The notes under the pieces: generated by a model
What the model was told of the DNA's origin: nothing
What the model saw: the letters and a program-made list of their open reading frames with translations, nothing else
The model's database searches: none
Made by a program: the position numbers and the translations under genes
Shown here: positions 48,980-51,111 of the stretch, piece by piece
Numbering within the stretch: the first letter of the stretch is position 1
How the letters are laid out: every line of letters begins with the position of its first letter
Source: a gamma proteobacterium symbiont of Ctena orbiculata
GTDB lineage: Bacteria; Pseudomonadota; Gammaproteobacteria; Chromatiales; Chromatiaceae
Assembly: GCA_003058525.1 (NCBI GenBank)
Contig: QBVD01000046.1
Span: 62,001-126,000, forward strand
Direction: 5' to 3'
Length of the DNA stretch: 64,000 nt

Positions 48980-50218
48980 TCAATCAAGCACGTGACTGAC
49001 CAGTCCATCCGCCAATTTCGGTTCAAACCAGGTCGACTTGGGTGGCATGACTTCACCGGCATCCGCGACCGCCATCAGCTGCTCCATGCTTGTGGGAAAA
49101 AGCGAGAAGGCTACCGCCATCTCACCGGAATCCACCCGTTGCTCCAAGCCGGAAAGACCTCGGATCCCGCCGACAAAATCGATTCGATTGTCACGGCGTG
49201 GATCGGAGATACCAAGAATCGGCTCAATCAGATTGTCTGCCAGAAGACTGACATCCAGACGCGCAACAGGATCACTGGGGATCTTCGCCGCATCGAGACG
49301 CAGGCGATACCACTGCCCATCCAGATACATGCCGAATTCACCACTCCGCTCGGGTTTTACGGCCTGATCACTGGTTTGCAATTGAAAAACCGCTTCAATG
49401 CGAGTGAGAAAAGTCTCTTTATCCAGCCCGTTCAGATCCATCACAACCCTGTTGTAGTCGAGAATCTGCATCTGATTGTGCGGAAAGATGACACTCAGAA
49501 AGTAGTTGTAGGCCTCATCCCCGGTATGGCTGCTATTCGTCCCTTTCCTCGAAGCCGCCACCCTTGAACCGGCGGCGGATCGATGGTGGCCATCGGCAAC
49601 ATAGAGCGCCTCCATCCGATCAAATTCATGGGTCAGCGTAGCCACTTTCTCTTCATCATCCAACGGCCAGATCTCGTGCCTTACTCCATCTGCGGCAGTG
49701 ACATCCATCTCCGGGGGGGTCTGCGATATCTCATTGAGTAGGGCTTCCACTGCTGCGGCGCTCGGATAGACCAGAAAAACAGGACCCGTCTGGGCATTCA
49801 GGGCATCGATCTGACGCACCCGGTCATCCTCTTTCGCCGGGCGGGTGAATTCATGCTTTTTGATCCGGTCATGATCATAGGCCTCAACCGAAGCAGCGGC
49901 CACCAACCCTGTCTGTTGATGCTCCCCCATCGTCAGGCGGTAGACGTAGAAACAGGGCTGCTTGTCCCGAATGAGGATCCCCTCCCTTTCCATCTCCTTC
50001 AGATTCTCAGCGGCCTTGGCATAGACCTCGGGGGCATAGGGGTCGGTACCTTGCGGGAGATCTATTTCAGGCCTCGAAATATGCAGGAAGCTCCACGGAC
50101 GGCCGTGGGCCATCTCTCTGGCCTCAGCCTCGTTCATGACATCATAGGGTGGTGCGGCGACATCGGCAGCCCGCCCTTCGGCAGGACGCAGTCCGGGAAA
50201 TGCTCTGATCAGCGGCAT
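48980..50218 (-). CDS. DUF1015 family protein
   Basis: The 412-residue cytoplasmic protein shows the family signatures FPGLRPAEGRAADVAAPPYD and YVADGHHRSAAG near residue 200. A late AVADAGEVMPPKSTWFEPK matches the C-terminal ParB/sulfiredoxin-like fold pattern (MPPKSTWFxPK). DUF1015 proteins resemble ParB-type nucleotide-binding folds and are often near serA or phosphoserine genes; no biochemical role is assigned. It precedes relA by 5 bp, so relA probably depends partly on its promoter. Confidence 0.88.
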   Translation of the reverse strand: MPLIRAFPGLRPAEGRAADVAAPPYDVMNEAEAREMAHGRPWSFLHISRPEIDLPQGTDPYAPEVYAKAAENLKEMEREGILIRDKQPCFYVYRLTMGEHQQTGLVAAASVEAYDHDRIKKHEFTRPAKEDDRVRQIDALNAQTGPVFLVYPSAAAVEALLNEISQTPPEMDVTAADGVRHEIWPLDDEEKVATLTHEFDRMEALYVADGHHRSAAGSRVAASRKGTNSSHTGDEAYNYFLSVIFPHNQMQILDYNRVVMDLNGLDKETFLTRIEAVFQLQTSDQAVKPERSGEFGMYLDGQWYRLRLDAAKIPSDPVARLDVSLLADNLIEPILGISDPRRDNRIDFVGGIRGLSGLEQRVDSGEMAVAFSLFPTSMEQLMAVADAGEVMPPKSTWFEPKLADGLVSHVLD

Positions 50219-50328
50219 GGGGATACTTCCTCAGGAATATGCGGTCGGTTATCAATCGATCCGATTATGAACGAGGGACGGATTGTTTCAAAAGAACAGT
50301 CGAACAATCAAGTTGAAAAGCCCCTCCG
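50219..50328. other. DUF1015 promoter side of a divergent intergenic region
   Basis: These 110 bp lie between the DUF1015 start codon and the activating sequence of the plus-strand small RNA. They probably hold the minus-strand promoter for DUF1015-relA. No other structure is seen. The whole 386-bp gap (50219-50604) also contains the small RNA. Confidence 0.5.
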
Positions 50329-50346
50329 TGTAAGAATTGGCCTACG
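50329..50346 (+). promoter_or_regulatory. GacA/UvrY-type upstream activating sequence
   Basis: TGTAAGaattggCCTACG fits the GacA palindrome TGTAAG-N6-CTTACA in all six bases of the left half and four of six in the right half. It is centred about 65 bp before the inferred start of the small RNA at ~50402. A TAGAAT -10 box lies at 50390-50395; there is no good -35 box, as expected for an activator-dependent promoter. Confidence 0.7.
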
Positions 50347-50401
50347 CTGATTTGAGATCAATCCTACATTTTTTTTAAGGTTAATCACTTAGAATTATAA
50401 C

Positions 50402-50528
50402 CGTCGCATCAAGGAAGCAACGGATAGCAGGCTCGTACATGGATGTGCAAGGATCGAACCAATTGCCAACCAATCACTGCGACACGAGATCCTGGCGCCC
50501 AAGGATAGGGTGCCAGGGTTTTTTTTGC
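50402..50528 (+). ncRNA. candidate CsrA/RsmA-sequestering small RNA (RsmY/RsmZ/CsrB-like)
   Basis: This transcript of about 127 nt has five GGA motifs (50413, 50422, 50441, 50451, 50503). One is in GTACATGGATGTGC, a hairpin with GGA in the loop that matches the CsrA SELEX consensus RUACARGGAUGU at 11 of 12 positions. Another lies in the loop of the terminator hairpin (CCTGGCGCCC - AAGGATA - GGGTGCCAGG, then eight or nine T). A long-range stem pairs GTCGCA (50403) with TGCGAC (50478). With the GacA-type box upstream, this is the architecture of RsmY/RsmZ/CsrB RNAs that titrate CsrA. The start site is inferred from the -10 box. No primary-sequence family match was checked. Confidence 0.75.
50491..50528 (+). 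terminator. rho-independent terminator of the small RNA
   Basis: A 10-bp GC-rich stem with one G-U pair (CCTGGCGCCC / GGGTGCCAGG), a 7-nt loop containing GGA, and a run of eight T on the plus strand only. This strand bias shows that a plus-strand transcript ends here; folK is on the other strand. Confidence 0.9.
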
Positions 50529-50604
50529 TTATAATACAGCAATATAAGGATTACTCGACGCCATATTCAATGACTTACCCCATGGCTCATATAGAGATCT
50601 GACG

Positions 50605-51111
50605 TTACCGTACCCGATCCTCGACGCGCCACAAGTATTGATCCGGCTGGTCAAACGCCTCCCACAACTGGCTATAAGTTCGCCCTGAATGTGGGTGAAG
50701 TTCATCACCCGCCACATCAGACAGGGGCAGCAGGACGAATGCATATTTCACGATTTCATCCCGAGGCAACTGAATCGGCCCATCATCGACAATCTGATCG
50801 CCATACGTCAGCAGATCGATATCCAGGGTTCGTGAAGCAAACCTGTCCGGTGTCCGTCTTCTGCCGTGACGTGCTTCCAGCTTCCGCAACTCCACGACCA
50901 GCGCTCTCGGTGAAAGGTCAGTGTAGATCCCCACAACCAGGTTATGAAAATTATCGCCTTCAAGCCCGACGGCCTCACTTTCATAAATAGGGGAGACCTG
51001 CAGTTCACCGAATAGTGCCTCAAGATCGCGCAGGGCTCGGGGAATATGGTTCTCAGGCGCCATATTGCTGCCCAAACTCAACCAGGCATGTACACTCCCG
51101 CGATCAGTCAC
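50605..51111 (-). CDS. folK: 2-amino-4-hydroxy-6-hydroxymethyldihydropteridine diphosphokinase
   Basis: It pyrophosphorylates 6-hydroxymethyl-dihydropterin in folate synthesis. The 168-residue product has LSLGSNMAPENHIPRAL at the N-terminus, the loop motif RRTPDRFASRTLDIDLLTYG (residues in substrate and Mg2+ binding), and LPRDEIVKYAFVLLPLSDVA, matching FolK. Its start overlaps the 3' end of folB by 8 bp. Confidence 0.95.
   Translation of the reverse strand: MTDRGSVHAWLSLGSNMAPENHIPRALRDLEALFGELQVSPIYESEAVGLEGDNFHNLVVGIYTDLSPRALVVELRKLEARHGRRRTPDRFASRTLDIDLLTYGDQIVDDGPIQLPRDEIVKYAFVLLPLSDVAGDELHPHSGRTYSQLWEAFDQPDQYLWRVEDRVR

Follow-up and report, generated by a model that had tools for sequence, protein, structure and literature searches.

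CsrA is a global post-transcriptional regulator. RsmX, RsmY and RsmZ of Pseudomonas and CsrB and CsrC of enterobacteria share an upstream palindrome of the GacA/UvrY type, repeated ANGGA motifs, a SELEX-like site and a Rho-independent terminator, and occur in genomes with csrA and gacA; in all these respects, the locus described here is like them, its genome having csrA and a gacA candidate. A second group is represented by McaS and GadY of E. coli. McaS acts on csgD and flhD rather than on csrA, and neither McaS nor GadY is known to be a GacA-driven sponge. Both are termed base-pairing RNAs and combine CsrA binding with mRNA pairing, according to the paper which also gives RUACARGGAUGU as the CsrA SELEX consensus and states that in E. 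coli CsrA acts through its own leader to inhibit its translation (PMC7652899).

The stretch of DNA that we analysed (the window; 64,000 nt, G000:C2:62001-126000) belongs to a 4.74 Mb genome, and its folK is 96% identical to folK of Candidatus Thiodiazotropha endolucinida strain COS, a lucinid symbiont. A sequence-only reading had proposed a GacA-controlled, CsrA-sequestering small RNA in the gap between a DUF1015 gene and folK. The position was as described; the gene there named DUF1015 has no NCBIfam match. The GacA-type box TGTAAG-N6-CCTACG (two mismatches to TGTAAGN6CTTACA), the -10 box TAGAAT, the five GGA motifs and the strong terminator with a GGA in its loop were all located (Table 1), and GTACATGGATGT indeed agrees with the SELEX consensus at 11 of 12 positions. 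As in Csr/Rsm sponges, a Rho-independent terminator is present and ORF conservation is absent: open reading frames inside the unit have 21-31 codons and are disrupted in relatives (genus alignment, judged by eye). The sequence-only reading is incomplete, as it lacked the second GacA-like site, the GTCGCA/TGCGAC closing helix, the second gene copy and the invariant non-GGA segment, which is the csrA-mRNA pairing segment treated below. Upstream of the unit, TTGAAA in the near-invariant block GATTGTTTCAAAAGA is predicted to be the -35 element of a divergent promoter towards the DUF1015 gene.

Table 1. Features of the predicted small-RNA unit, its neighbours and further copies (window positions unless a contig is named)
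Feature	Position	Strand	Remarks
Upstream neighbour (DUF1015 in the sequence-only reading)	48980-50218	-	gene start faces the unit
Near-invariant block GATTGTTTCAAAAGA	50281..50295		minus strand carries TTGAAA
Whole unit	50329-50526	+	box, -10, GGA motifs, terminator
GacA/UvrY-type box 1, TGTAAG-N6-CCTACG	50329..50346	+	-74 from predicted 5' end
GacA-like box 2, TTTGAGATCAATCCTACA	50351..50368	+	22 bp downstream of box 1; 3 mismatches
-10 element TAGAAT	50390..50395	+	
Small RNA, predicted transcript of ~124 nt	50403..50526	+	5' end assumed to be GTCGCA
Closing helix, 5' strand GTCGCA	50403..50408	+	two-sided changes in relatives
GGA 1, predicted CsrA site	50413..50415	+	invariant in 21/21
GGA 2, predicted CsrA site	50422..50424	+	invariant in 21/21
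GGA 3 (at 50441), SELEX-like site GTACATGGATGT	50435..50446	+	GGA invariant in 21/21
GGA 4, predicted CsrA site	50451..50453	+	invariant in 21/21
Putative anti-csrA segment ATTGCCAACCAA	50462..50473	+	perfect 12-nt complement of own-genome csrA mRNA leader
Closing helix, 3' strand TGCGAC	50478..50483	+	two-sided changes in relatives
Rho-independent terminator stem-loop, 15 pairs	50486..50522	+	GGA 5 (50503-50505) in loop
folK	50605-51111	-	gene end faces the unit
Second RNA locus in window genome	G000:C1:133101-133221 (L109:802-922)		found with R2
Tandem copies, four each	G002:C3:752582-753742; G016:C7:1043877-1045036; G012:C267:1540-2713		

GacA-like boxes with up to three mismatches occur 9 times in the window while 14 are expected; box 1, taken as a single sequence, is unremarkable and within chance. 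The GGA count (5 against 2.8 in dinucleotide shuffles, p 0.087) was not significant, ANGGA was found 5 times against 0.78 expected, with none of 2000 shuffles as high, and the predicted fold of a 131-nt stretch was better than those of its shuffles (z -3.3), only 2 of 200 of which equalled it. Predicted folds placed GGA in a small hairpin loop clearly for the terminator only, the other GGA motifs being mixed (mean unpaired probability outside the terminator 0.53). Lack of conservation of the GGA-in-loop hairpins in relatives would have spoken against the sequence-only reading; the GGA motifs are invariant, and the hairpin-loop setting is clear for the terminator only. On sequence grounds, the unit is a real small-RNA gene, because it is conserved in 21/21 genus genomes with all five GGA motifs invariant.

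This conservation is apparent from a blastn search with positions 50300-50535 against 56 genomes (21 of the genus, 14 from elsewhere in the family and 21 from outside it). All 21 Ca. Thiodiazotropha genomes, the window genome included, gave matches, as against 0/14 other family members; among the 21 non-family genomes there was one 20-nt match, judged spurious. The genus alignment has variable spacers between invariant elements, namely the five GGA motifs, GTCGCA, TGCGAC and TTGCCAACCAA. Upstream, box 1 is present as TGTnAGAA-N4-CCTAC in 18/21 genomes, the box 2 core GA--AA-CCT-CAT is retained across the 21, and the -10 element reads TAGAMT in 20/21.

Covariance models extended the family considerably. 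R1, a model made solely from sequences of the genus (among them the window RNA, which scores 130 bits), matched 50/146 family genomes at E<=1. Model R2, built from 48 sequences, matched 82/146 family genomes and 37/61 genera at E<=0.01 (72/146 genomes at the stricter E<=1e-4), and 112/210 order genomes at E<=1e-4. At class level, 13/369 genomes were matched, three of them belonging to the family; among the ten matches outside it, L097, L098, L099 and L101 were judged plausible and L100 and L104 doubtful, while L102, L103, L105 and L106 were rejected as spurious on inspection. A subset of all matches, comprising 93 promoters and 91 distinct RNAs (21 from the genus, 45 from R1 and 27 from R2), was used for the counts of motifs and boxes. 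The several ANGGA motifs expected of a Csr/Rsm sponge are conserved in it, with 4.6 per RNA against 0.9 in shuffles (91 distinct RNAs).

Compensatory changes in relatives, which the sequence-only reading had suggested looking for, were found both in the closing helix and in the terminator. The helix is 98.6% paired in 61 sequences, with C-G replaced by U-A at one pair in 13/61 and a further two-sided change of C-G to A-U in relatives, and the terminator has many two-sided changes across the family. Together, the two structures have 177 cells with two-sided changes, where shuffles give 44; the alignment leans towards the structure because it was fitted to it. A third model, R3, omits the inner pairs proposed by RNAalifold, for instance those between GG of GGA 1 and CC of CCAACC.

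The family could also be an artefact, a terminator and GGA motifs brought together by chance. Weak matches do behave in this way: L093, an R1 match of 28 bits elsewhere in the window genome, is nothing but a terminator that follows a coding region, and several weak class-level matches look spurious. Against this stand the conservation in 21/21 genus genomes, the box position and the covariation, which leave the artefact a negligible probability. A chance cluster of GGA motifs in particular is rejected on the basis of ANGGA, conservation and covariation, though the GGA count alone is not significant.

As for membership in a known family, the window and 20 related loci gave no match to Rfam 15 at gathering score, whether to RsmX, RsmY, PrrB_RsmZ, CsrB, CsrC or any other family; up to E 10, two matches fell at the site, both to unrelated families and neither to an Rsm/Csr family. 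The RNA belongs to an undescribed family without an Rfam 15 entry, which occurs in bacterial symbionts of clams and in related bacteria.

The second locus of the window genome is flanked by a TypA-like GTPase gene and a peptidase-like gene (names from reading the translations), so that this genome has two loci supplying candidate CsrA antagonists; L093 was rejected as a second copy. Multiplicity is the rule, as the order search gave two or more R2 matches in each of the 22 listed genus genomes and five matches in each of five genomes. Besides the fourfold tandem arrays of Table 1, at least three tandem copies are present in G007 and G010, and each copy read in G002 and G016 has a GacA-like box. 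In G076, two tandem copies at L062:1150-1750 are followed by another GacA-like box, perhaps indicating a third copy. In some copies the segment is missing, or no clear GacA box is seen. A paralog subtype (L068, L078, L092, L112) has the GGA array and the closing helix without CCAACCAAG; its promoter reads TTGACTTTAATTCC(C/T)AGGAA or TTGAATTTAATTCCCAGGAA, and its best GacA-box scores are 7-9 of 12, none of them clear.

We then examined the promoters and the Csr/Gac genes. The 130 bases upstream of 93 copies, which form part of no covariance model, were scored against TGTARGNNNNNNCYTACA, a consensus relaxed after inspection of the promoters. A score of at least 9 of 12 was reached by 84/93 promoters against 10% of 1860 shuffles, and at least 10 of 12 by 67/93 against 1.5%. 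Box starts among the 84 are concentrated at -72 to -75 (63 cases), -94 to -96 (12) and -51/-52 (5), and 80/84 share one 21-22 bp register. Thus, the upstream GacA/UvrY box of a Csr/Rsm sponge is found here at a fixed position.

The genes which such a system needs, csrA and uvrY/gacA, were also expected by the sequence-only reading. In the window genome, csrA follows lysC (named from its translation) and exceeds its cut-off (NF002469, 115.8 bits, cut-off 73). A GacA/UvrY-family candidate scores 274.3-274.8 bits, just below its curated cut-off of 280; after it come a 210-aa ORF and uvrC (named from its translation), in this order. A second, weaker CsrA-family match (44 bits) lies at G000:C91:94741-94860. 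Across the family, csrA was found in 130/146 genomes and ortholog-level GacA in 81/146, with a threshold (NF007018, E<=1e-66) placed post hoc in the observed score gap. The small RNA and the GacA ortholog occurred together in 74 of the 146 genomes, the RNA only in 8, GacA only in 7 and neither in 57; for the 61 genera, the corresponding numbers were 33, 4, 3 and 21. With the GGA motifs conserved and both csrA and a GacA candidate present, a GacA-controlled, CsrA-sequestering RNA is the best-supported core reading of the locus, as far as sequence comparison can tell.

Between the GGA array and the closing helix, the RNAs carry a segment with the consensus GCCAACCAAGC (window version ATTGCCAACCAATC). 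Because this segment is invariant yet contains no GGA, genomes were searched for its complement TTGGTTGGCAA, and the invariant part GCCAACCAA proved complementary to the 5' leader of csrA mRNA. In the window genome, the csrA leader reads GGAGGCTTGGTTGGCAATGG, with TTGGTTGGCAA at G000:C15:73038-73048 on the minus strand; there and in G002 and G009, it lies 68-73 nt before the csrA start. Contiguous pairing with the genome's own csrA leader amounts to 12 nt both for the window RNA and for the second copy, and of the 11 nt of the family site, the window RNA pairs 10, with one mismatch (row of the near-identical G009).

csrA leaders were obtained for 61 of the 82 sRNA-positive genomes (one of them shortened by its contig) and for 30 of the 64 others. 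TTGGTTGG is present in 44/61 of the former and 1/30 of the latter (Fisher 1e-10, genomes being treated as independent of phylogeny). Complementarity was then tested in 59 genomes of 30 genera, using whole RNAs minus the 5' closing strand and the terminator, with G029 (contig ends) and G098 (weak match) left out. The longest contiguous complement averaged 11.0 nt for the own leader, 9.7 for leaders of other genera and 6.8 for shuffled leaders; at least 11 nt were reached in 40/59 own leaders against 0/295 shuffled ones. None of 20,000 genus permutations, which handle phylogeny at genus level, reached the observed mean. Random 200-nt windows beside sRNA genes had a mean of 6.8, with 3/240 reaching 10 and the longest 14.

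Moreover, both partners change together. Compensated variants, read from cleanly registered rows since the column tally mixes registers, are CCAGACCAAGC with GCTTGGTCTGG (G075, G179), CAAGACCAAG with CTTGGTCTTG (G178), ACAAGCCAAGC with GCTTGGTTTGT, one G-U included (G069), CACTCAACCAA with TTGGTTGAGTG (G166) and AATACCAACCAG with CTGGTTGGTATT (G077). In genera g62 and g63, the register moves to GTTTGCCAACC, with 17 contiguous pairs in G148. Ten chosen segment pairs, taken as isolated duplexes, had predicted energies of -18.0 to -43.5 kcal/mol. The segment core was predicted to be more open than the whole RNA (0.63 against 0.44, 60 RNAs), while the leader site did not stand out as open (predicted 0.35 against 0.41 over the whole stretch; 45 leaders). 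Computationally, the RNA thus has the marks of a trans-acting sRNA, i.e. a conserved accessible segment, a conserved target and compensatory changes.

These data bear on a simpler explanation, a plain Csr/Rsm sponge which only titrates CsrA, with GCCAACCAAGC serving the RNA itself (its structure, RNase or Hfq) and the complementarity being incidental. The GGA array, the GacA boxes and the terminator would suffice for a sponge, and in the RNAalifold structure GG of GGA 1 is paired to the segment's CC. We hold this explanation to be unlikely, as the csrA-leader complementarity exceeds that of shuffled leaders, random genomic windows and other-genus partners, the changes in segment and leader are compensated, the segment core is more open than the RNA overall, and CsrB and CsrC of E. 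coli have no such match to csrA (values below).

Another possibility is that one DNA site for a transcription factor controlling both genes is present in two opposite-orientation copies, as the segment and as the csrA leader site. Both sequences are short and conserved, and a protein recognising a non-palindromic sequence could work whichever way round it lies. The csrA site, however, lies downstream of a TGNTANNNT -10 element in 54/57 leader sites against 5.9 expected (the list of site variants having been chosen after seeing the data), at a distance of 6-50 nt (median 37) from this predicted csrA -10; from the site to the csrA start codon there are about 62-118 nt. It should therefore be transcribed, and the segment likewise lies inside the predicted sRNA transcript. 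G-U and Watson-Crick changes which keep the pairing, and its extension to 15-17 nt in single lineages, would not be predicted by DNA recognition either; a shared DNA site is thus very improbable. We return to RNA pairing as the preferred reading.

There are exceptions to this pairing. A recognised leader site is absent in 3/60 genomes, i.e. G017 (whose best csrA is divergent, 78 bits), G031 and G029 (contig ends). A contiguous match of at least 9 nt at the expected place is absent in 5/59 (G017, G031, G069, G123, G149); when G-U pairs and mismatches were allowed, G069 and G149 were recovered, and G123 with an interruption. When R3 was run on the 30 sRNA-negative genomes with a csrA leader, six matches at E<=1 were obtained, of which only L277 resembles a member. 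It belongs to G034, whose csrA leader is the only one to contain TTGGTTGG among those of the sRNA-negative genomes. The csrA leaders of six further sRNA-negative genomes (G073, G089, G097, G112, G162, G177) carry the variant CTTGGTCTGG or AGCTTGGTTCAGG, from which further, diverged RNA members are predicted; these genomes may harbour such members undetected. If the pairing reading is true, RNAs with CCAGACCAAG beside the closing helix are to be expected where the csrA leader is of the CTTGGTCTGG type, and relatives with different leader sequences would in this way predict where to look for the rest of the family.

csrA might not be the only target. Each of 13 genus genomes has TTGGTTGGCAA at 4-14 places, while the reversed control is found at 1-7, which makes targets besides csrA possible. 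Of 20 such places inspected in five genus genomes, the majority fall within open frames of 50 codons or more, though these need not be coding; one, L301, is by reading the csrA leader of G011. An intergenic TTGGTTGGCAA at L302 (about 997-1007), common to G000, G009, G005 and G001, precedes a TolC-like gene by ~85 nt. The gene matches TIGR01844 at 130 bits, below the cut-off of 225, and its mRNA is a possible second target on sequence grounds.

Conservation, covariation, box position, co-occurrence with gacA and co-evolving complementarity were all observed directly in the genomes compared. The model that we infer adds to them transcription of the unit, binding of GacA and of CsrA, an RNA-RNA duplex in the cell and a direction of its effect. 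According to the model, GacA/UvrY would bind one or two helically phased upstream palindromes and switch the RNA on; the Csr/Rsm-type RNA of ~124 nt would titrate CsrA through its five ANGGA sites, and its segment would dock on the 5' leader of csrA mRNA, so that a single RNA would act on the CsrA protein as well as on its messenger. By eye rather than by computation, the docking site often appears just after an apparent 5' hairpin. That the RNA is a GacA-activated CsrA sponge which also base-pairs with csrA mRNA is, in our judgement, very probable, and it is quite probable too that a co-evolving antisense segment in a GacA-driven sponge lets one RNA set both CsrA activity and CsrA synthesis in about 30 genera.

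As for the direction of the effect, we are only moderately sure that pairing lowers csrA expression, in which case GacA would reduce free CsrA at two levels. In the main alternative, which we consider somewhat less probable, docking would keep CsrA-binding sites in cis and thereby relieve CsrA autorepression. Either outcome could follow from docking, given that the csrA Shine-Dalgarno region often has GGGA and that E. coli CsrA represses its own leader. Loss of CsrB lowered csrA mRNA in E. coli, and in the case of E. coli C the mechanism is described by the authors as not straightforward (PMC8151843). The roles might even be reversed, with an abundant csrA leader as the effector which captures the sponge and frees CsrA. 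csrA is indeed among the most abundant symbiont gill transcripts, at 78,450-85,249 median TPM in three hosts, according to the first row of Table 1 of a paper on Candidatus Thiodiazotropha endolucinida (PMC13137333). Since the reversed roles rely on the same pairing data, they are a variant of the main reading and not its opposite, and we regard them as quite unlikely.

If the main reading holds, in which the RNA titrates CsrA and pairs with csrA mRNA, it would represent a new circuit, with sponge and antisense regulator of one protein in one molecule, and a new way of setting the CsrA master switch. Neither this RNA nor a Csr sponge pairing with csrA mRNA was reported in the open-access titles and abstract openings searched, and the terms "sRNA" and "small RNA" are absent from the main text of the two Thiodiazotropha papers mentioning csrA. 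The Pf1, Pf2 and Pf3 RNAs of Pseudoalteromonas fuliginea are recent CsrA sponges from a non-model marine gammaproteobacterium; in the consulted part of that paper, only imperfect pairing with a few mRNAs is predicted for them, and the putative antisense sRNA predicted to act on csrA mRNA is a separate molecule, not a Pf sponge (PMC11882849). With McaS and GadY, the new RNA would share CsrA binding combined with mRNA pairing, here predicted; whereas those two are base-pairing RNAs, in the new RNA the GGA array dominates and the predicted partner is csrA (PMC7652899 for McaS and GadY). Unlike RsmX, RsmY, RsmZ, CsrB and CsrC, it has an invariant putative anti-csrA segment and the closing helix GTCGCM/KGCGAC; in E. 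coli, complementarity to csrA reaches 8 nt for CsrB and 7 nt for CsrC, with 7.7 and 7.4 in shuffles. The RNA thus appears to form a new family, whose predicted combination of sponge and antisense regulator is unlike the Csr/Rsm systems found in the open-access literature consulted.
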